This document shows, in pieces, positions 4,292 to 55,902 of a stretch of DNA of 64,000 bases; positions within the stretch are counted from its first letter, which is position 1, and the number at the start of each line of letters is the position of its first letter. Origin of the DNA: Paucibacter sp. DJ2R-2 (GTDB lineage: Bacteria; Pseudomonadota; Gammaproteobacteria; Burkholderiales; Burkholderiaceae_C). Under the pieces are notes generated by a model. It was given only the letters and a program-made list of their open reading frames with translations, did not search any database and was not told where the DNA came from. The stretch lies in contig NZ_JAJIRT010000009.1 of the NCBI RefSeq assembly GCF_025717675.1, forward strand, positions 124,001 to 188,000, read 5' to 3'. The position numbers were made by a program, and so were the translations under genes.

Positions 4292-6643
4292 TCAGCGACG
4301 CTTGCGGGCGGGCTGCTCGGCGACCTTTGCGGCTTTGCCTGCCTTGCTCGCCTTGCTTGATTTACTCGCCTGATTCTTGCGCGCCACCTGGCGCGCCAAC
4401 TCGACCGGATGCGCCGGCTGGACCGAAGAAGCCGTGGCACGGCTGCGCCCCGCGGCACCGCGGCGAGCGGACTTTGCCACTGACTTGAGCTCGCGATCGC
4501 GGCTCAACAGCTGCTCCAACTCATCCTCGGCCGTGGCCGGCAGGGGCCGGGCATTGAGCCCCGCCTTGTCGCGCGCCGCACGAGCGACCAGCTTGGCCTC
4601 GCCACTTTCCTGAACCAGACGGAAATCGATCTTGCGGGCATCCAGGTCGACGCGGCTGACCTGAACCTGAACCTTGGCTCCCGTGGCATAGCGGATGCCA
4701 GTGCGCTCGCCGCGCAACTCCTGGCGCACTTCGTCGAACTTGAAATACTCGCCGCCCAGTTCGGTGATGTGGATCAGGCCCTCGACGAACAAGGCATCGA
4801 GCTGGACAAAGAGACCGAAGCTGGTCACGGCACTGACCGTGCCCGCGAACTCTTCTCCCAGATGCTCGCGCATATAGCGGCATTTGAGCCAGGCCTCGAC
4901 ATCGCGCGAAGCCTCGTCGGCACGGCGTTCGTTGGCGCTGCAATGAGCACCGACCACGTCCCAGCGTTCGATTTCGGTTGAGGCCTTGGCCGGGTCAATC
5001 GGCGCCGCGCGACCTGGGCGTTTGGCCGGCATGGGCACGTTCATCTTGCCGGCGTCGAGCTGGTACTTCTTGTCGACCAGCAGCGCCTTGATGACCCGAT
5101 GCACAAGCAGGTCGGGATAGCGGCGGATCGGGCTGGTGAAGTGGGTGTAAGCCTGATAGCTGAGACCGAAATGGCCCGCATTGGCCGAGGTGTACATGGC
5201 CTGCTGCATGGAGCGCAGCAGCATGGCATGAATCTGCGTGGCATCCACCCGGTCCTTGGTGGCTGCCGCAATCGCCTGGTATTCGGCCGGCTTGGGATTG
5301 TCACCAATCGACAGCCCGAGACCCAAGGCACGCAGATAGGCCTGCAAGGCCACGCGCTTCTCGGGCGTGGGCCCTTCGTGCACACGGAACAGCGAGCCAT
5401 GCTTGGAATGCTCGATGAAATCAGCCGCGCAGACATTGGCGGCCAACATGGCCTCCTCGATCAGCTTGTGCGCCTCGTTGCGCGTGCGCGGAATGATCTT
5501 CTCGATGCGGCCGTTGTCATCGCAAACGATCTGCGTCTCCACCGTGTCGAAGTCAATGGCGCCGCGCCGATGACGCTCGGCCAGCAAGGCCCGATAGACC
5601 TCGTGCAAATGCAGCAGATGCGGCACCAGCTCTCGTCGCTTGGCCGCCTCCGGCCCATGGGTGTTGCCCAGGATGGCTGCGACCTCGTTGTATGTGAAAC
5701 GCGCTTGGGAACGAATCACCGCGGGGTAGAACTGATAAGCCTGGACTTCCCCGCTCTCGCTGACCAGCATGTCGCAAACCATGGACAGGCGGTCTTCATG
5801 GGGATTCAGAGAGCACAGCCCGTTGGAGAGCTTCTCCGGCAGCATCGGAATCACGCGGCGCGGAAAGTAGACCGAGGTGGCGCGCTCGTAGGCATCGCCG
5901 TCCAGGGGGTCGCCGGGCTTCACATAATGGCTGACATCGGCGATGGCCACCAGCAGGCGCCAGCCGGTAAAGGCCGTCTTGCCGCGCCCTTGCTTGTGCG
6001 GCTCGCAGTAGACCGCGTCATCGAAGTCTCGCGCGTCTTCGCCGTCGATGGTGACCAGGGCGACGTCTCGCAGGTCAATGCGCCCTTTCAAATCGGCGGC
6101 GCGCAGCTTCTCGGGCAGCTTGGCTGCCTGGGCCAAGGTTTCGGCGCTGAAGCGGTGCGGCACCTCGTACTTGCGCACGGCGATCTCGATCTCCATGCCC
6201 GGGTCGTCGATCTCCCCCAGCACCTCGACCACCCGGCCGACCGGCTGCGCATACAAGGAGGGCGGCTCGATCAGTTCCACGGCCACCACCTGCCCGGCCA
6301 CCGCATTGGCAATGCCGTTCTTGGGAATCAGAATGTCCTGACCCATTCGCTTGTCTTCCGGCGCCACCAACCAGATGCCCGACTCCAGCAGCAAGCGGCC
6401 GATGATGGGCTTCTTCTTGCGCTCCAGGATTTCCAGCACCCGACCCTCGGGCCGTCCGCGCTTGTCATAACGCGTGATTCGCACGCGCAGTCGGTCGCCA
6501 TGCATGACGGCGTGCATTTCCTGCTGCGACAGGTAGATGTCCTGTGCGCCGACATCGGGCAAGAGGAAGCCATGCCCATCGCGGTGCCCCTGCAAAGTCC
6601 CGTCGACTTCGCTGAGCAAACCTGCGTTCTCGGCGGGCGCCAC
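4292..6643 (-). CDS. rnr: Ribonuclease R (3'-5' exoribonuclease, RNB family)
   Basis: It degrades structured RNA from the 3' end. Two cold-shock domains are recognisable (one starts with DGTLQGHRDGHGF at 14-26), followed by the RNB core with the Mg-binding acidic cluster DGEDARDFDD at 200-209, an S1 domain at roughly 615-700 (GTVSAVTSFGLFVQLD) and a Lys/Ala/Ser-rich basic tail to residue 783. The chosen GTG start leaves almost nothing ahead of the first cold-shock domain, so the N-terminal helix-turn-helix found in E. coli RNase R is absent. The frame upstream is open for about 25 codons only and overlaps the tRNA promoter, so a much longer product is not possible. Confidence 0.95.
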   Translation of the reverse strand: MAPAENAGLLSEVDGTLQGHRDGHGFLLPDVGAQDIYLSQQEMHAVMHGDRLRVRITRYDKRGRPEGRVLEILERKKKPIIGRLLLESGIWLVAPEDKRMGQDILIPKNGIANAVAGQVVAVELIEPPSLYAQPVGRVVEVLGEIDDPGMEIEIAVRKYEVPHRFSAETLAQAAKLPEKLRAADLKGRIDLRDVALVTIDGEDARDFDDAVYCEPHKQGRGKTAFTGWRLLVAIADVSHYVKPGDPLDGDAYERATSVYFPRRVIPMLPEKLSNGLCSLNPHEDRLSMVCDMLVSESGEVQAYQFYPAVIRSQARFTYNEVAAILGNTHGPEAAKRRELVPHLLHLHEVYRALLAERHRRGAIDFDTVETQIVCDDNGRIEKIIPRTRNEAHKLIEEAMLAANVCAADFIEHSKHGSLFRVHEGPTPEKRVALQAYLRALGLGLSIGDNPKPAEYQAIAAATKDRVDATQIHAMLLRSMQQAMYTSANAGHFGLSYQAYTHFTSPIRRYPDLLVHRVIKALLVDKKYQLDAGKMNVPMPAKRPGRAAPIDPAKASTEIERWDVVGAHCSANERRADEASRDVEAWLKCRYMREHLGEEFAGTVSAVTSFGLFVQLDALFVEGLIHITELGGEYFKFDEVRQELRGERTGIRYATGAKVQVQVSRVDLDARKIDFRLVQESGEAKLVARAARDKAGLNARPLPATAEDELEQLLSRDRELKSVAKSARRGAAGRSRATASSVQPAHPVELARQVARKNQASKSSKASKAGKAAKVAEQPARKRR

Positions 6644-6663
6644 AGCATTTGCGCTGCCAGCAC

Positions 6664-6693
6664 TTGAGTTCTTAAAGTTTTTGATGATAGAAT
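6664..6693 (+). promoter_or_regulatory. Sigma-70-type promoter for tRNA-Leu
   Basis: A -35 hexamer TTGAGT (6664-6669) and a -10 hexamer TAGAAT (6688-6693) are separated by 18 bases. Initiation would fall near 6700, about 60 bases ahead of the mature tRNA 5' end. It overlaps the leader of the divergent rnr gene. Confidence 0.6.
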
Positions 6694-6759
6694 CCTTGCT
6701 TTCCTGAAACGTCAGGGCTTACTCAAAAGATCATTCTTGAGAGCAAAGCTTTGAACCTT

Positions 6760-6844
<85 letters not shown>

Positions 6845-6852
6845 AATCCATC

Positions 6853-6882
6853 AAAGGCCAGTATCGAAAGATACCGGCCTTT
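6853..6882 (+). terminator. Hairpin downstream of tRNA-Leu
   Basis: AAAGGCC-A-GTATC (6853-6865), a GAAA loop and GATAC-C-GGCCTTT (6870-6882) form a nearly perfect stem immediately after the tRNA 3' end, with a short T-rich trail. It is read as the tRNA transcription terminator. Confidence 0.75.
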
Positions 6883-6927
6883 GTCATTCTCGCGCCCCAA
6901 AAGCTAGGGGCAGCGCGGTCAAAAGAG

Positions 6928-6976
6928 AAAAGCCGGCCGACGCCGACCTGCAGAAGGTCAGCGTCGCCGGCTTTTT
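6928..6976 (-). terminator. Rho-independent terminator of the phosphoribosyltransferase/purA group
   Basis: A long stem made of AAAAGCCGGC..GACGC..GACCT on one side and AGGTC..GCGTC..GCCGGCTTTTT on the other starts 20 bases after the stop of the minus-strand phosphoribosyltransferase. On the minus strand the hairpin ends in a T-rich run. It can also act on + strand transcripts from the tRNA side. Confidence 0.8.
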
Positions 6977-6996
6977 GCATGGCCTGCAGCGTAGGC

Positions 6997-7518
6997 TCAG
7001 ACAACAAACTTCTTGGCCAGCGCATCAGGGCGCATGTCGTCGTACTCTTCGAAAGGCTGGTGGATCCAGGGGCTGGTGTCCAGCATTTCGACATAGTAGT
7101 CCGGCGTGTAGCTGGACACACCCTTGGTCCAGATCACGGCCGAACGCAGTTCGCTGATCGCCGGCATGCCGCGCAAACGCTCAACCACAGCCTTGAGCGT
7201 CACGCCGGAGTCGGCGAGATCGTCCACCAGCAGCACTCGGCCGGCCAACTCGCCCTTGGGCATGGTGATGTACTTGGCAATGTCCAGGCGCCCCTGGATG
7301 GTGCCGGCTTCGGCACGGTAGGAGCTGGTGGACATGATGCCCAGCGGCTTGTCGAACACGCGGGACAGCACGTCACCAGGGCGCATGCCGCCACGGGCGA
7401 GGCAAAGAATCTGATCGAACTCCCAACCGGAAGCGTGGATCTTGAGCGCCAGGCGCTCGGTCAGCATGTGGTATTCGTCCCAGGACACGTACAGATGCTT
7501 GCCGTCGTCGGTCAACAT
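6997..7518 (-). CDS. Phosphoribosyltransferase family protein (purine-type)
   Basis: This 173-residue protein has the type I PRPP-binding signature VLLVDDLADSGVTL at 95-108 and a CLARGGMRPGDVLS hood/phosphate region at 39-52. It transfers phosphoribose from PRPP to a base, most likely hypoxanthine, guanine or xanthine as part of purine salvage. The substrate is not certain: the protein resembles the COG2236 group rather than classical Hpt or Gpt. It lies 77 bases downstream of purA on the same strand, which fits a purine role. An AGGAG sits upstream of the ATG. Confidence 0.8.
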   Translation of the reverse strand: MLTDDGKHLYVSWDEYHMLTERLALKIHASGWEFDQILCLARGGMRPGDVLSRVFDKPLGIMSTSSYRAEAGTIQGRLDIAKYITMPKGELAGRVLLVDDLADSGVTLKAVVERLRGMPAISELRSAVIWTKGVSSYTPDYYVEMLDTSPWIHQPFEEYDDMRPDALAKKFVV

Positions 7519-49683: not shown

Positions 49684-50217
49684 CTACTTCACCTCGCGCG
49701 CCAGCTTCAGCATCTGCGAGCTGAGCATCAGGCCGCGCCGCTTGGCTTCGCTGTGGTTGATGCGAAAGGCCATGCCATTGGGCTCCAGCACCAAGGCGAT
49801 GATGGCGCCGGCCCGGAAGGCCTCGGCGCTGGCGCCGACCACCAGCAAGGGGCTGTCGGCCAAAGCGTCCAGCCAGAGCTGCAGCTCCTGGCGGCCTGCA
49901 AAGCCCAACACCAGCACATGGCAGGGCCCCGCCTCGGCTGGCGAGCCCAACACCAAGACCCGCCCCGCGGCCTGGCCCATGGGCTTTTGCGCCACCACGC
50001 GCATGGCGTCTTGCAGCTCGCGGTCGCCCGCCACGCAGTAATTGAACTCGCGGCCCGGCGGCGGCGGTGGCCACTGCGTGAACTGAGCAAAGCGGTAGAT
50101 GAAAGCCGCCTTGAGCTGCGCCTCCTCCTGGCCGGGATGCGCACGAGCGTCCCCGGCAGCCCACAGCAAAGGCAAGAGCAGGCACGGCCCGCGCCATGAG
50201 CGCAGCCAGCGCTTCAT
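49684..50217 (-). CDS. YfiR-family (DUF4154) periplasmic protein
   Basis: This 177-residue protein has a signal peptide (about 1-26, LLLPLLWAAGDARA) and the DUF4154 pattern LKAAFIYRFAQFTQWP followed by two cysteines (NYCVAGD and GPCHVLV) and a C-terminal INHSEAKRRGLMLSSQMLKL. In Pseudomonas YfiR holds the diguanylate cyclase YfiN inactive from the periplasm. Its ATG overlaps the stop of the receptor gene (ATGA), and a YfiN-like cyclase is two genes upstream, so the regulatory pairing is plausible. Confidence 0.85.
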   Translation of the reverse strand: MKRWLRSWRGPCLLLPLLWAAGDARAHPGQEEAQLKAAFIYRFAQFTQWPPPPPGREFNYCVAGDRELQDAMRVVAQKPMGQAAGRVLVLGSPAEAGPCHVLVLGFAGRQELQLWLDALADSPLLVVGASAEAFRAGAIIALVLEPNGMAFRINHSEAKRRGLMLSSQMLKLAREVK

Positions 50218-52274
50218 GATCCCACCCGATGGTTGAACTGCAGGCGCAGCACGCGGCCCTCCTGCCACAGCGGTGGTGCGCCCACATCAGGTTGGTCAGC
50301 ATAGTGCTGGCCCGTGAGGTTGCGCAGTCCCAGCGACCATTCGCTGTCAGCGCTCTGGCGCCACAGCAGGTGCAAATGGTGCAAGGCATGGCCCGGCAGA
50401 CTGCCGGCCGGAACTTTGCGGCGACTCATGGCCTGGGTCTGCCAGCCCAGCTGCAGGTCATCACGCCAGAGCAGCTGGCTGTAGGCCAGCTTGAACAGGC
50501 GGCGCGGCGAGTTGTCGAGTTCGGTGCCGCTGCTTGGCTCGCGGCTGTGCTGCAGCGACAAGCCCATTTGCAAGCGAGCTCCACCGTCCCATCGCTTTTC
50601 CAGGCCCAGCTCGAGGCCTCGGCTGCGCACACCCTCGCTGTTGATGAAGCTGAGACTCGTGTCCGGATTCAACACCTGGGTGATCAAGCCCGTCATGCGT
50701 GCGCGGTAAACCGAGGCGCGGTACTGCAGCTGCGGGGTCAGGCGGTGTTCCAGCGCCAACTCCAGGCTGCGCGTGCGCTCGGCCGCCAACGCCGGCAAGC
50801 CAGGAGCTTGGTTGCTGCTGAATTCGTAGAAATTGGCAGCGCGGTAGGCGCTGCCCTGCATCAACTTGAGATTGGCCTCCGGGCTCAACTGCCAGACCCA
50901 GGCCAAGCGAGGGTTGAGGCGTGCACCATCAGCCCGGCGGTCATGGTCCCAGCGCAGGCCCAGCACCAGGCGATGCTGGGCGTGAAGCTGCCATTCGTCT
51001 TGCACAAACACGCCCAGGCGCTCGGACGCCGAGGTGAAATCCAAATCAGGCGGCAGGCCTCTCGCACCCAGAGCGATTCGCTGCAGCCGGTCACGCTGCC
51101 ATTCCAGGCCGCCCAGCACATAGTGCCCACGCCAGGCCGAGCTGCCCAGGCGCAGGGCGAACTCGTCCCACTGGCCTTCGGACAAGGTCTCCAGCTCCAG
51201 AGGCGGCCGCTCCGGCTGCTCCAGCGGGTCGCGCCTGCGGGATTGCGAGACCTTGCTGGAGGCCTCCACGGTCAAATCCCAATCGGCGCCCAGCGCACCT
51301 TCATAGCCCAGGGCCGCGAACTGGTTGAAGTAGATCGAACGGCCTTGGCCGATGCCTCCAGCCGGCCGTGTCGGGTCCAGCGGCACGGCATTGCCGCGCA
51401 CGCGCTCACTGTGGCCGGCGCGAAAGCTCCAGCCCGCCATGCTGGCGCGAGCAAGCACTCGGGTGCCATGGTCCCAGTTGTAGTCGCGCAGGCGATCGGC
51501 CACCTCCGCGGGCACAGGCGTGCTCAGGGGGATGCGGTCCTGCTGAAAACCCGAAATCGAGATCCAGCCTTCAGCACCGCTGTCGAGCCGCTGACCCGCA
51601 CTGGCCTGCCAGCTGCCGCCGCGCAGCGAATCGAGCGCCAGTCGGGCACGCAGGCCGGCCAGCTTGTCGGCGCGCTTGGTCTGCACCTGGATCACACCAA
51701 AAAAAGCGTTATTGCCATAGAGCGCCGAACCCGGGCCCGGTGTGAACTCGACCCGGTCGATCAGGTCCACATCGACATAAAACTCCGGTCCAATCAGGGC
51801 TGCATCGAAGATGTTCTCGTTGACGCGTACCCCATCGATCATCAGCAGCAATCGGGCGTTGAAATCGCCCGGCCGCCCCAAGCCGCGCGCGGCCACATAG
51901 ACAAAATTGCCATTGCTGGTGGTGAACAAGCCCGGCAAGCAATTGAGGATGTCGGCCATGCTGCGCAGGCCGTAAGCGCGTATCTCCGCATCGGTGAGCA
52001 CATAGGTCTGCGCCGGAGCCTGCTCGGCACTTTGCGCGAAGCGCGAGGCGGTGGACACCTGCACCGCCTGCGGCACAGCCTTGAGCCCCTGGCGCAACAG
52101 GTCCTCCAAACCCAGATCCAAGCCAGCATTGACCTCCGCAGCCGCAGGCTGCGGGTCTGCGGCGTGCGCATTCGCTGCGAGCAGCCCACCACACAAAGTC
52201 GCGGCCACACCGGCATGGGCGACAGCGCGCCCAGCGCGCTGAGCCCACCCTGCAGGGTGCTCAGCTGCTTGCAT
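50214..52274 (-). CDS. TonB-dependent outer-membrane receptor
   Basis: A 686-residue outer-membrane protein: signal peptide (about 1-40), an N-terminal LGLEDLLRQGLKA segment, a plug domain (about 65-190, with GNFVYVAARGLGRPGD and LMIDGVRVNEN) and a 22-strand barrel. It resembles receptors encoded beside YfiR-family and GGDEF or kinase genes rather than typical siderophore receptors; ligand unknown. The start overlaps the cyclase stop by 14 bases. The C-terminus ends FNHRVGS rather than in the usual aromatic residue, because four codons run into the overlap with yfiR. Confidence 0.88.
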   Translation of the reverse strand: MQAAEHPAGWAQRAGRAVAHAGVAATLCGGLLAANAHAADPQPAAAEVNAGLDLGLEDLLRQGLKAVPQAVQVSTASRFAQSAEQAPAQTYVLTDAEIRAYGLRSMADILNCLPGLFTTSNGNFVYVAARGLGRPGDFNARLLLMIDGVRVNENIFDAALIGPEFYVDVDLIDRVEFTPGPGSALYGNNAFFGVIQVQTKRADKLAGLRARLALDSLRGGSWQASAGQRLDSGAEGWISISGFQQDRIPLSTPVPAEVADRLRDYNWDHGTRVLARASMAGWSFRAGHSERVRGNAVPLDPTRPAGGIGQGRSIYFNQFAALGYEGALGADWDLTVEASSKVSQSRRRDPLEQPERPPLELETLSEGQWDEFALRLGSSAWRGHYVLGGLEWQRDRLQRIALGARGLPPDLDFTSASERLGVFVQDEWQLHAQHRLVLGLRWDHDRRADGARLNPRLAWVWQLSPEANLKLMQGSAYRAANFYEFSSNQAPGLPALAAERTRSLELALEHRLTPQLQYRASVYRARMTGLITQVLNPDTSLSFINSEGVRSRGLELGLEKRWDGGARLQMGLSLQHSREPSSGTELDNSPRRLFKLAYSQLLWRDDLQLGWQTQAMSRRKVPAGSLPGHALHHLHLLWRQSADSEWSLGLRNLTGQHYADQPDVGAPPLWQEGRVLRLQFNHRVGS

Positions 52275-53649
52275 GACTGGCGCGCCGATAGGTGTTCTTG
52301 CCCGCACGCTTGGCGGCATACATGGCCACATCGGCGGCCACCAATAAATGGGCGGCATCGACCTCATCGGTCGGGCAAAACGCCAAACCGACCGTGGCAC
52401 CGACGGGCATCAGATGCTCGCCCACGTAAAGCGGCTCCCGCACCGCAGCGATCAAGCGCTCGGCCAGCTGTTCGGCGGCCGTGTCATTGGGCAAAGCCGG
52501 CAGGATCAGGCCGAACTCGTCGCCGCCCAGACGGCACAGCACATCATTGCCGCGCAGGACACGACTCATGCGCCGCGCCACCTCGCGCAGCACCTCATCA
52601 CCGGCCTCGTGGCCATGTTTGTCATTGACGGTCTTGAAGTTGTCGAGGTCGATAAACATCAGGGCCATCAGCTCCACGTTCTGGCAGCTGGCGGCCATAT
52701 GCCTCTCCAGCGCTGACTGGAAGTACAAGCGATTGGGCAGTTGGGTCAGGGCATCCCGATGGGCCAGCTGCTCGAATTGCTGGCCGGCCTCCTGCTCCTG
52801 GCGCAGGCGCAGATTCAGTTCGGCCTGAGTGGTCTCGACGCGCTGCAGCATCTGGTTGAAACGTTCGCTCAGCCGCCCCACCTCATCGGGCCAGTGGACG
52901 ATGGCGCGACGGGTGAAATCCTGATCCGCAGACACCTGCTCGGCCAAACGCGACAGTTCCACAATGGGCGCCAATGCCCGGCGTTGAACACGGCGCAGGG
53001 CTCGCCAGGCTATGGCGATGGCGACTGCGATCAGCAAAGCGGCCGCGCTGACCATCTTCAGCACCAGCAGTTGCAGCTCCTGCAAGCTCTCGCGCAAGAC
53101 CAGGCTGCCGACCCATTCGCCCTTGAGCTTCACAGGCACCCAGACTTCGACTTCGGCCAGACGCATGAAACGGATGGACTGGGACTGATCCAGACCGCTC
53201 GGAACACTGTGCACCTGCCCACCAGCACCGCCGGCCGACCACTGGACAAAAGGCGTCCGGGCTGCGCTCAAGGCCCGTACCTCCAGCACCTCGCCACGCC
53301 GCACGAAGGCCGCCAGTTCGGCGCTGGCGGCCGCGCGGTCCTCGAAGACCAGCATGGGCGCCAAGCTGTTGGCCAGCAACTGGGCGCTGAGCTCCGCACT
53401 GCGGGCCTGCCGTTCGCGCGCGCCCAACCAGAGCATGGCGGCAATCAAGCCGAAGCTCAGCACCATGGAGATGGACAGGACCTGCAGGTTCAGGCGCGTC
53501 AGGCGACGCACCAAGGAATGCTGAATCTCACCCCGAACGGGCGGGCTGACCGAAGCGGCAGCAGCCCCGGACTTGACACCACTGACAGATGGCAGCTCCG
53601 GACCCGCTGCGTGTGCAGGGGCATTCTTACTGCTACTTTCAACGCTCAT
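52261..53649 (-). CDS. Membrane diguanylate cyclase (CHASE-like sensor, HAMP, GGDEF), YfiN-like
   Basis: The 462-residue protein has two transmembrane helices (about 54-76 and 195-216) bracketing a 118-residue periplasmic domain, then HAMP (about 217-270), a coiled-coil linker and a GGDEF domain (about 297-455). The active motif GGDEF is at 375-379 and the product-inhibition I-site RGND at 366-369, five residues before it, so it should synthesise c-di-GMP and be feedback-limited. The layout is that of YfiN/TpbB. It is the first gene of a set with the receptor and the YfiR-like protein. Confidence 0.9.
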   Translation of the reverse strand: MSVESSSKNAPAHAAGPELPSVSGVKSGAAAASVSPPVRGEIQHSLVRRLTRLNLQVLSISMVLSFGLIAAMLWLGARERQARSAELSAQLLANSLAPMLVFEDRAAASAELAAFVRRGEVLEVRALSAARTPFVQWSAGGAGGQVHSVPSGLDQSQSIRFMRLAEVEVWVPVKLKGEWVGSLVLRESLQELQLLVLKMVSAAALLIAVAIAIAWRALRRVQRRALAPIVELSRLAEQVSADQDFTRRAIVHWPDEVGRLSERFNQMLQRVETTQAELNLRLRQEQEAGQQFEQLAHRDALTQLPNRLYFQSALERHMAASCQNVELMALMFIDLDNFKTVNDKHGHEAGDEVLREVARRMSRVLRGNDVLCRLGGDEFGLILPALPNDTAAEQLAERLIAAVREPLYVGEHLMPVGATVGLAFCPTDEVDAAHLLVAADVAMYAAKRAGKNTYRRASHASS

Positions 53650-53826
53650 CGATCATGCCCAACTGGCCCGGCGCAACATGCACCAGTCACAAGCGGCATT
53701 TTTTACCATTCAGCCGGCCCGGTCTATCGGGGAAACAGCGCGGTCAAAAGCCGGCTTTGCAAGGCTCGCCTAGGGTTGGCCGCCGCTCACTCACGAGCGC
53801 CCAAACCTCCACGCTGGCAGGGGGGC

Positions 53827-54474
53827 TCAGCTGGCGACCAAACCGTTGCGAATGGCGTAGACCGTCAGCTCGGAATTGTTCGCCAGAGCCAGTTTCTCCA
53901 GCACGCGGGCGCGATAGACGCTGACGGTCTTGGGGCTGAGCATCAGCTCTTCGGCGATGTCCGACAGGCGCTTGCCGGAGGCAATCATCACCAAGGTCTG
54001 CAATTCGCGATCGGACAACTTTTGATGCGCTTGCTCGCTGACTGGCGCGGTCAGGCTTTCGACCAGCATCTGCGCAATCTCCGGAGTCACGTACTTGCGC
54101 CCCTGGGCCACCGTGCGCACGGCCTGCACCAGCACCTGCGGATCACCGCCCTTGTTGACATAGCCGAAAGCCCCGGCCCGCAGCGCACGGATCGCGTACT
54201 GGTCCTCCGGATACATGGACACGATCAGGGTCCGGATCGCCGTGCCTTCGTCCTTCATCACATGCAGCACGTCCAAGCCGCTGCGGCCCGGCATATTGAT
54301 GTCCAGCACCAGCACGTCGACCGCGGCATTGGGCCCAAGATCACGCAGCAGGCTGCGCAGCTCGCCGTAATCACCGGCCTCGCCGATCACCTCGATATCA
54401 GGCACATCGGACAAGGTGTCGCGAATGCCGCGGCGAATCAGGGCATGGTCGTCGCAGAGAATCACCTTAATCAT
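53827..54474 (-). CDS. NarL/FixJ-family response regulator
   Basis: A 215-residue regulator with an N-terminal receiver (phospho-acceptor Asp58 in LVLDINMPGRSG, acidic pair at 8-9) and a C-terminal LuxR-type helix-turn-helix (about 150-210, LSDRELQTLVMIASGKRLSD). The ATG overlaps the stop of the kinase gene (ATGA), which makes the pair a cognate two-component system. A palindrome in the divergent promoter region is a candidate target. Confidence 0.9.
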   Translation of the reverse strand: MIKVILCDDHALIRRGIRDTLSDVPDIEVIGEAGDYGELRSLLRDLGPNAAVDVLVLDINMPGRSGLDVLHVMKDEGTAIRTLIVSMYPEDQYAIRALRAGAFGYVNKGGDPQVLVQAVRTVAQGRKYVTPEIAQMLVESLTAPVSEQAHQKLSDRELQTLVMIASGKRLSDIAEELMLSPKTVSVYRARVLEKLALANNSELTVYAIRNGLVAS

Positions 54475-55616
54475 GCGCCACCCCATGCCGACGGGTCATG
54501 CGCGACCGCCGCGCCCTCATCGCCGCCCAACTGATCCATGGCATCGGCCATCAACGGCACCGAAAGAATCAGGCTCGTGCCCTTGCTGTTGCTGCTCAAG
54601 TCCACCCAACCTCCTACCGTTGCGGCGCGCTCGTGCAAGCCGCGAATGCCAAAACTGCGCGCCTTGGCCAAGGCGCCTGCAGCAATGCCGACCCCATTGT
54701 CGCTGAGTTCCAGCGTTAGCACGCCGGAGTCCACGCTCAGCTCGATATGAACCCGCGTGGCCTGAGCATGCTTGGAGACATTGGTCAAAGCCTCTTGGGC
54801 CGTGCGATAGGCCACCAAGGGCACGCCGGCAGGCAGCTGCATCTGATCATGGCTGGTGCGCATGGTCGTGACGATGCCGGTGCGGCGCTCGAAGCGCGCC
54901 GCCATCCACTGCACCGCAGCCACCAAGCCCTGCTCGAGAATGGCCGGCCGCAGGTTGTGCATGATGCGCTGGCTGGCCTCAATGGCCGAGGTCACGGTCT
55001 CCAGCGCCGATTGCACGCGCTGCAACACAGCCGGGTCCTGGGCGTGGCGGTTGATCCAGGCCAGGTCGAACTTCAGCGCCGTCAAGGAGCCGCCGACATC
55101 GTCGTGAATCTCGCGCGCGATCGCTGCCCGCTCCATCTCAACACTGGTCTGCAGATGTCCCGCCAGTTCATGCAGACGTTGCTTCGACTTGAGCAACTCA
55201 CGGTCGGCCTCGATGCGCGCTCGCTCCGACTCGCAGGCCTCAATGGCGTGCAGCAAAGCCGGCGCCAGCCGCGCCAGATCTTTCTTGAGCAAATAGTCCG
55301 AGGCGCCCGTGCGCATCGCCGCCACCGCCGTGTCCTCACCAATTTCGCCGGACACCAGCACAAAAGGCAGCAGGCGCTTGCTCTCTTTCAGCATGTCCAG
55401 CACCAGCAAGCCGGAAAAACCAGGCAAGTTGTAGTCGGAGACCACGGCGTCCCAGGGTTCATCGAGGGCCTGCCGCACTTCGGCCAGGGTGTCCACCCGG
55501 TGCAATTCCAAATTCAAACCGGCACGGCGCAACTGAGCCATGATCAATTGATGATCGAGCTCAGAGTCTTCTATATGCAACACGCGCAGCCGGCGATCAG
55601 CGGTAGAGATCGTCAT
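54471..55616 (-). CDS. Receiver-histidine kinase protein (REC plus HisKA_3/HATPase)
   Basis: The 381-residue soluble protein starts with a receiver domain (Asp61 in SDYNLPGFSG) and continues through a coiled coil into a NarX/DegS-type kinase: H-box His171 in REIHDDVGGSL, N-box ALTNVSKHAQA and G-box SDNGVGI. It has no membrane segment and no sensor other than the receiver, so it is probably driven by an upstream phosphodonor. The ATG at 55616 was chosen over a 67-codon upstream extension without homology. Confidence 0.88.
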   Translation of the reverse strand: MTISTADRRLRVLHIEDSELDHQLIMAQLRRAGLNLELHRVDTLAEVRQALDEPWDAVVSDYNLPGFSGLLVLDMLKESKRLLPFVLVSGEIGEDTAVAAMRTGASDYLLKKDLARLAPALLHAIEACESERARIEADRELLKSKQRLHELAGHLQTSVEMERAAIAREIHDDVGGSLTALKFDLAWINRHAQDPAVLQRVQSALETVTSAIEASQRIMHNLRPAILEQGLVAAVQWMAARFERRTGIVTTMRTSHDQMQLPAGVPLVAYRTAQEALTNVSKHAQATRVHIELSVDSGVLTLELSDNGVGIAAGALAKARSFGIRGLHERAATVGGWVDLSSNSKGTSLILSVPLMADAMDQLGGDEGAAVAHDPSAWGGA

Positions 55617-55704
55617 GGGGGGCGAGTATGCCGGGAATGAATGAACTACTCGGTCCGCCACAGGTGCGGCATTGGCACGAATCAGCGAGGAAGCGACGCC
55701 AATA

Positions 55705-55718
55705 AAGGGTTTACCCTT
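55705..55718. promoter_or_regulatory. Palindrome AAGGGT-TT-ACCCTT in the divergent kinase/chemotaxis region
   Basis: A perfect 6-bp inverted repeat, 89 bases upstream of the kinase ATG and 185 bases upstream of the chemotaxis operon. Its position suits an operator for the adjacent NarL-type regulator; this is inference. Confidence 0.4.
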
Positions 55719-55902
55719 ATATTTACTTCGTCGCCGTTGTCGAATCACACAAATAGGCCGGTTATGCGTCCATTGTCCTGTCGACAGTTCTGCAGGAATT
55801 GCCGAAGATGCTCGCAAGAACCGGTCGCCCCGCTGGGCCGAGACACTGCCCCGAAACGGGGTCGGGTCTTGCGCTTGGCAGGTCCATAAGCGTGGAGCAA
55901 AG

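Follow-up and report, generated by a model that had tools for sequence, protein, structure and literature searches.

The 64,000-nucleotide stretch of Paucibacter sp. DJ2R-2 DNA analyzed here, referred to throughout as the window, carries on its minus strand, at positions 49684-53649, three overlapping genes for a YfiN-like cyclase, a TonB-dependent receptor (TBDR) and a periplasmic YfiR-like protein, in that order (Table 1). The cyclase and TBDR genes share 14 bp and the TBDR and yfiR genes 4 bp (ATGA); a mechanically called TBDR reading frame that begins at 52400 is an upstream extension of the best ATG start. In the phylum sample described below, a TBDR rather than a YfiB-type lipoprotein is the usual neighbour of yfiR, and this association is the basis on which we consider how the products of the three genes might act upon one another.

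The cyclase, with two transmembrane segments as judged by eye, scores above the Pfam cut-offs for CHASE8 (43.7 bits), HAMP (34.3) and GGDEF (158.3), the TBDR for Plug (59.3, amino acids (aa) 84-194) and TonB beta-barrel (118.9), and the YfiR-like protein, to which a signal peptide could be assigned by eye, for the YfiR/HmsC-like family DUF4154 (PF13689; 110.4 bits against a cut-off of 24.9). These matches bear out, exact coordinates included, the three genes and protein families named in an earlier interpretation of the window made from its letters alone (the sequence-only reading). The description of the cyclase as YfiN-like stands as well, DgcN/YfiN being its top NCBIfam match at 258.6 bits, though below the equivalog cut-off of 325. 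The accompanying claim that the active and inhibitory (I) sites are intact holds for the GGDEF motif and the RxxD primary I-site and appears to fail at the secondary I-site, where Ala320 aligns with the position of the arginine. In a gapless alignment, Ala320 faces a YfiN Asp that lies 14 residues ahead of the DxD motif. We take this Asp to be the one that stands in for the secondary I-site arginine, by a count that is 3 off the published numbering and by the position of the arginine in PleD. In YfiN, an Asp replaces the secondary I-site arginine and there is no product inhibition (PMC3838380), and the arginine appears from the alignment to have been lost from the window cyclase as well.

The YfiR-like protein matches the solved YfiR of Pseudomonas aeruginosa by sequence (E 1.3e-6), and the AlphaFold2 model of the protein, built from 15 sequences with a mean predicted local distance difference test (pLDDT) value of 82, retrieves chains of YfiR entries at Foldseek ranks 1-15; its score against the NCBIfam YfiR equivalog is 33.7, below the cut-off of 85. 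The AlphaFold2 model of the TBDR has a mean pLDDT of 74, with residues 1-18 and 27-87 below 50, and resembles BtuB and other TBDRs in Foldseek, BtuB being at the top of the list. The fold predicted for the receptor is BtuB-like, at 17-20% identity, a resemblance that assigns no ligand. A profile search of the TBDR found no STN domain match at E 0.001, in a protein whose N-terminal region is of low confidence in the model.

For the survey of yfiR neighbourhoods, PF13689 was searched in 150 genomes of the phylum (39 with a match) and 60 genomes of the family (22 with a match), all with a completeness of at least 90 and with the window's own genome in both sets. The resulting 95 loci comprise 56 phylum and 36 family matches outside the own genome and 3 within it. 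Each was examined over ~7 kb on either side of yfiR, with neighbours labelled by hidden Markov models (HMMs) built for the analysis and gene starts set mechanically; stretches clipped at contig ends stay in the counts, and the loci are not independent, since one group (f23) supplies numerous kinase loci. Within 3.5 kb of yfiR there is a TBDR at 75 of the 95 loci (30/39 in the family and 47/59 in the phylum set, own loci being counted in both), an OmpA-type gene at 10, neither at 10, and both at none; a naive Fisher test of this exclusion, which ignores kinship, gives 1.8e-8. At 3.5-7 kb the TBDR count is 4/95, and chance neighbourhood was rejected as an explanation on the difference between near and far (75 against 4). 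By a rough estimate from the 49 Plug domains of the 5.8-Mb window genome, a same-strand TBDR would be expected within reach at ~5% of places. The 75 linked receptor genes include 3 fragments (L050, L099 and L114) and 2 genes on the opposite strand from yfiR (L043 and L074).

A same-strand CHASE8 gene lies within 3.5 kb of yfiR at 81/95 loci, and the output domains vary with the partner. The TBDR loci have a histidine kinase in 43 cases, GGDEF-EAL in 9, GGDEF in 7, a CHASE8 protein without a labelled output in 6 and no CHASE8 gene in 10, the OmpA loci have GGDEF in 9 cases and no CHASE8 gene in 1, and the loci with neither partner have a kinase in 6, GGDEF in 1 and no CHASE8 gene in 3. Nine of the OmpA-type genes are on the same strand as yfiR; the tenth, at L112, lies on the other strand, near a yfiR whose product falls elsewhere in the tree considered below. 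Eight of the nine same-strand OmpA proteins begin with a lipobox-like sequence, followed in 7 of these 8 by a G-F...G-W stretch; a simple lipobox pattern matched nothing in L051, and the printed sequence of L052 stops before the G-F...G-W region. One genome (G156) has both kinds of arrangement as separate loci, L048 with OmpA and L026, L049 and L053 with a TBDR. At L111-L114, divergent YfiR-like proteins adjoin hybrid kinases that gave no recognisable CHASE8 domain and perhaps use another sensor domain.

A quick maximum-likelihood tree was made for 94 of the 95 YfiRs, one being too short. The nine same-strand OmpA-linked YfiRs and the partnerless L103 form one branch with full support in the Shimodaira-Hasegawa-like approximate likelihood-ratio test (SH-aLRT), the window YfiR belongs to a supported set of 8 (97) with L005, L101, L050, L032, L038, L053 and L036, and TBDR-linked YfiRs are spread across the remainder of the tree. 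Partner type, TBDR or OmpA, needs two changes on this tree, one of them at the doubtful L112. The distribution suggests, but no more than suggests, that linkage to a TBDR might be older than linkage to YfiB, since the tree has no root and support is weak for 37 of its 91 inner branches. The proposal in the sequence-only reading that a TBDR occupies the place of YfiB thus survives insofar as the two partners never share a neighbourhood; it does not survive as a local swap, since a TBDR is the common neighbour of yfiR throughout the phylum sample, and it is the YfiRs linked to YfiB that make up a single clade.

The co-conservation of the trio that the sequence-only reading anticipated is evident both in the survey and among close relatives. 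Window-type YfiR (at least 56% identity) was found in 12 of the 18 genus genomes searched, the own genome included, and in 11 of the 12 a same-strand CHASE8 match lies 2.8-2.9 kb upstream; in the twelfth, G218, the contig starts 382 bases before the match. A similarity search with the window YfiR gave 17 loci, and 13 of them (L006, L008-L012 and L015-L021) have the order cyclase-receptor-yfiR. The remaining four are L007 and L013, both truncated by contig ends, L014, a TBDR-yfiR pair, and L022, a yfiR-kinase locus. A copy of the trio at L050 (G204, 4432-7438) is in decay, with fragments of the cyclase and receptor genes, an intact yfiR and REC-domain genes upstream.

The window genome itself has 2 CHASE8 matches and three yfiR genes, that of the trio and those at L005 and L004. 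The YfiR of L005 (C41) is the closest survey relative of the window YfiR, at 63% identity; its gene is paired with that of a TBDR and has no CHASE8 gene nearby. At L004, yfiR adjoins a gene for a histidine kinase of the CHASE8-HAMP type, and a TBDR gene lies 4.1 kb away, beyond a gene on the opposite strand. The window genome, G213 and G218 share a second YfiR with 61-62% identity to that of the window, encoded on a contig without a CHASE8 match. Its gene forms a pair with a TBDR gene at L005 (window genome) and L014 (G213), and at L013 (G218) the contig ends beside it; L007 and L013 were assigned to G218 and L014 to G213 by their matching places. From these gene arrangements it is possible that, in the group to which the window belongs, two receptor-yfiR inputs converge on one cyclase. 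An imbalance is also seen in the 3.7-Mb genome G102 (L066, L069-L071, L074-L075 and L110), in which several receptor-yfiR pairs are without a transducer of their own, since it has 7 PF13689 matches and 3 CHASE8 matches.

We judge the chances to be slightly better than even that the three window genes constitute one signalling unit, in which YfiR brakes the cyclase through its CHASE8 domain and the TBDR acts as outer-membrane input and controls the supply of free YfiR. In P. aeruginosa, YfiR is proposed to bind YfiN at an 'AAVVF' patch around Phe70, with Phe162 and Leu183 named on the side of YfiR (PMC3375315), and activation of YfiB sequesters YfiR and raises cyclic di-GMP (c-di-GMP) levels (PMC3375315, PMC4887326, PMC4655355). 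By analogy, the YfiR-like protein of the window would bind the periplasmic CHASE8 domain through the Phe patch and hold the cyclase off, repression of the cyclase by YfiR being carried over from that organism. The TBDR might then take up YfiR on its periplasmic face, by way of its N-terminal stretch or plug, in one ligand or TonB state; such uptake would free the cyclase, and a ligand at the cell surface would bring about a change in c-di-GMP. The contact, the ligand, the sign and the dependence on TonB are presumed in this scheme.

Several residues are in keeping with the proposed contact between YfiR and the cyclase. The Phe of the CHASE8 patch is invariant in all 81 domains aligned, whatever the output domain. 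The equivalent of YfiR Phe162 is Phe in 8/8 of the window set, 55/67 other TBDR-linked and 8/9 OmpA-linked YfiRs, and that of Leu183 is Leu in 8/8 of the window set and 8/9 OmpA-linked YfiRs and hydrophobic (Leu, Val, Met, Ile or Ala) in 67/67 of the other TBDR-linked ones. On the side that faces the outer membrane, R60, R175 and P178 are among the residues of YfiR that contact YfiB, and L181 is a pocket residue that touches it (PMC4887326); the three contacts are kept in 7, 8 and 7, respectively, of the 9 OmpA-linked YfiRs and are mostly changed in TBDR-linked ones. Cys145 and Cys152, a structural pair in P. aeruginosa YfiR (PMC4655355), are both present in 9/9 OmpA-linked YfiRs and in 0/8 of the window set. 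Cys71 and Cys110 are kept as Cys61 and Cys99 of the window protein, with equivalents in 8/8 of the window set and, at each position, in 40/67 other TBDR-linked YfiRs. Pairwise distances of YfiR, TBDR and CHASE8 correlate over 62 loci (r 0.64-0.79, reached in 0/999 permutations).

A number of observations weigh against one signalling unit of this kind. F151, E163 and I169 of YfiR, also proposed for the binding of YfiN, are replaced in the window set (by Ile in 8/8, Arg in 6/8 and Ala in 6/8, respectively), the YfiB-pocket residue L181 is kept in 8/8 of the window set and 64/67 other TBDR-linked YfiRs, R171 is kept in 7/8 of the window set, and H177 is kept in just 3/9 OmpA-linked YfiRs. The residues, as aligned, give no clean split between a conserved transducer side and a changed outer-membrane side; the surfaces of YfiR that bind YfiN and YfiB overlap in any case (PMC4887326, PMC4655355). 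Shared descent may explain much of the pattern, because the OmpA-linked set is one clade, and it is left in the distance correlations too, with nearest neighbours of YfiR and TBDR agreeing at 14/25. A TBDR is missing from the 3.5-kb surroundings of yfiR at 20/95 loci, and 10 TBDR-yfiR pairs are without a same-strand CHASE8 gene within that distance. In a check of 8 genomes, a TBDR-yfiR pair (L046, in G190) and a lone yfiR with neither partner (L108, in G121) were each found in a genome without any CHASE8 match. The differences at F151, E163 and I169, and the place of L181 in the YfiB pocket, lower our confidence in the proposal.

The part of the receptor that might receive YfiR can be sought in sequences ahead of the plug. 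A stretch resembling SLEEL-x(3)-VTSxSKR precedes the plug in many yfiR-linked receptors, and receptors of the window clade carry a longer variant of it, LEDLLRQGLKAVPQAVQVSTASRFAQ. This stretch likely covers the TonB box and is a candidate for a docking or TonB-box region. A first model of the motif (A1; 31 rows, 70 columns), which includes many of the receptors later scored with it, gave 23 matches of at least 57 bits in the 60 family genomes, all of them adjoining a yfiR (12 in the model, 11 outside it). Below 57 bits, yfiR-linked and unlinked receptors intermingle, unlinked matches being found at 47.1 bits (model positions 7-70) in G171, which has no PF13689 match, and at 47.2 bits in G174, distant from the yfiR of that genome. 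A second, motif-only model made from 38 receptors, all from outside the family, gave at least 4.9 bits for 16/30 yfiR-linked family receptors. Among 48 other receptor loci of the own genome it gave as much for only one, L129 (8.0 bits; 4.1 kb from a yfiR), with the rest at or below 1.2 bits, among them L136, the linked receptor of L005. Counting against the proposal, the same model scores the window clade weakly, at no more than 3.1 bits (3.1 for the window receptor and -2.9 for that of L005). Taken together, the scores argue weakly for the motif as a docking site.

The genomic data separate docking of YfiR on the receptor poorly from a scheme in which the TBDR merely imports a compound that YfiR, with a fold similar to that of ligand-binding periplasmic proteins, itself senses, whereupon YfiR releases or grips the cyclase and no contact between receptor and YfiR is needed. 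Such delivery of a ligand, the leading alternative although we regard it as rather unlikely, would account for the frequent TBDR linkage equally well, and the Foldseek matches that follow the YfiR chains include, among other folds, substrate-binding proteins and a Trp-binding ATP-binding cassette (ABC) domain. Crystals of P. aeruginosa YfiR bind vitamin B6 or L-Trp, but the affinity is very weak (Kd in the tens of mM) and the known pocket overlaps the protein-binding surface (PMC4887326). Ligand delivery alone also leaves the mutual absence of YfiB and TBDR unexplained, and this exclusion leans toward a docking role that the two outer-membrane partners share. If docking of YfiR on the receptor is retained, its sign might still be the opposite of the one outlined above, with the empty receptor holding YfiR, and ligand or TonB action releasing it and lowering c-di-GMP; the genomic evidence is the same for either sign, which the sequences do not fix, but this version departs from the YfiB precedent and seems to us improbable. 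We give still less credence to the view that the three proteins are co-regulated from a shared operon with no signal passing between them, and that YfiR has another role at the receptor or in the envelope, since the TBDR-yfiR pairs without a CHASE8 gene, including that of G190, would fit it but the regular presence of a CHASE8 protein beside yfiR, whatever its output, and the invariant Phe would not.

Upstream of the trio, and separated from it by a gap that may contain a promoter, lie two genes for proteins with two-component-system domains (Table 1). A scan of the gap for the sigma-70 consensus found no match, and terminator-like sites were fewer than in shuffled sequence. Two similar-sized REC-domain genes are found upstream of the trio at 13/13 trio loci of close relatives.

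Table 1. Features of the cyclase-receptor-yfiR gene set and its upstream flank in the window
Feature	Position	Strand	Remarks
YfiR-like gene	49684-50217	minus	best start ATG 50217; 177 aa
TBDR gene	50214-52274	minus	best start ATG 52274; 686 aa
Receptor N-terminal stretch LEDLL...VQVSTASRFAQ	52032..52109	minus	aa 56-81, ahead of plug; longer variant of a motif in many yfiR-linked receptors; low confidence in AlphaFold2 model
Cyclase gene	52261-53649	minus	462 aa; CHASE8-HAMP-GGDEF, YfiN-like
Cyclase domains	CHASE8 aa 78-185 (periplasmic), HAMP aa 222-272, GGDEF aa 296-452	minus	Pfam
RGND (RxxD primary I-site, aa 366-369) and GGDEF active-site motif (aa 375-379)	52513..52554	minus	both intact in alignment to YfiN/TpbB structure 7a7e
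PMLVF patch	53344..53358	minus	aa 98-102; aligns with P. aeruginosa YfiN 'AAVVF' patch, proposed to bind YfiR
Gap upstream of cyclase gene	53650..53826	minus	177 bp
NarL/GacA-type response regulator	53827..54486	minus	upstream of trio; domain profile matches
REC-HisKA_3 kinase-like protein	54471..55817	minus	overlaps response-regulator gene; start uncertain; domain profile matches

The input of Yfi-type systems is an unsettled matter, envelope stress being the presumed signal for YfiB. Most divergent Yfi operons are without YfiB, and a TBDR is a possible replacement for it as the input. If Yfi-type systems do usually take their input from a TBDR, cyclases and kinases under the control of YfiR would in many cases be ligand-specific sensors of the cell surface, and nutrient receptors would gain a new route to decisions about biofilm formation and motility. 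A broader picture, tentative and in our estimate somewhat more doubtful than probable, is that TBDR, YfiR and CHASE8 together make up the main, and perhaps older, form of Yfi system in the Pseudomonadota, a general route from surface to cytoplasm that ends in kinase, GGDEF or GGDEF-EAL outputs and stands apart from STN/FecR signalling; the YfiB form would then be a single derived branch, and, in close relatives of the window genome, a second receptor-yfiR pair lacking a transducer of its own would feed the same cyclase.

Among known systems, signalling through FecA resembles the proposed unit in that a TBDR relays a surface signal inward by way of a periplasmic protein. It is defined by a TBDR with an STN domain, a FecR protein and an extracytoplasmic function (ECF) sigma factor; neither of the latter two was found among the five proteins scanned (cyclase, TBDR, YfiR, response regulator and kinase), and a FecA-type signalling receptor was rejected on the lack of an STN domain. 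The third component of HmsCDE is not known to be a TBDR. That system, with its YfiR-like HmsC, shares with the window set a tripartite periplasmic control of c-di-GMP (PMC5550408), and PMC8294551 mentions a YfiBNR-like operon with a CHASE8 cyclase. Similar in composition are the NCBIfam models TOL_0243 (YfiR-like), TOL_0244 (TBDR) and HK_near_YfiR_like (a CHASE8-type kinase, 'YfiR-like protein-associated'), each matched by the corresponding window protein at scores below the curated cut-offs (86.3 against 125, 116.3 against 645 and 98 against 194, respectively); the output there is a histidine kinase, whereas that of the window is GGDEF. The association of TBDR with YfiR at kinase loci is already known to annotators, because the models carry such names.

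In the account of modular YfiR-YfiN[PAS] systems by Malone et al. 2012 (PMC3375315), divergent Yfi operons are for the most part without yfiB and have GGDEF-EAL, HPT or kinase outputs in place of GGDEF. Section 12 of that article names no replacement for YfiB, and 'TonB' is absent from its main text, whereas a TBDR is observed at most of the loci surveyed here. We found no paper that describes the TBDR-YfiR association, as judged by titles and opening abstracts in a search that left subscription literature mostly outside, and the titles of four of the five publications found to name both YfiR and TonB give no hint of it. A close known system is YfiBNR of P. aeruginosa (DgcN/YfiN in E. coli), with which the window set has in common a periplasmic protein of the YfiR family, a CHASE8-HAMP-GGDEF cyclase with a hydrophobic Phe patch and an apparently lost secondary I-site arginine, and an outer-membrane third component encoded alongside. 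It differs in the TBDR that stands where YfiBNR has the OmpA-type lipoprotein YfiB, in the missing Cys145/Cys152-type pair and several changed YfiB-contact residues of its YfiR, and in the gene order cyclase-receptor-yfiR. The HMMs built for the analysis labelled no OmpA-type gene near the window locus, and plain membership in YfiBNR was rejected for want of both YfiB and that Cys pair. The receptor-linked trio is better regarded as a variant among Yfi-type systems than as a member of YfiBNR, with an association of TBDR and YfiR that is undescribed in the literature found.

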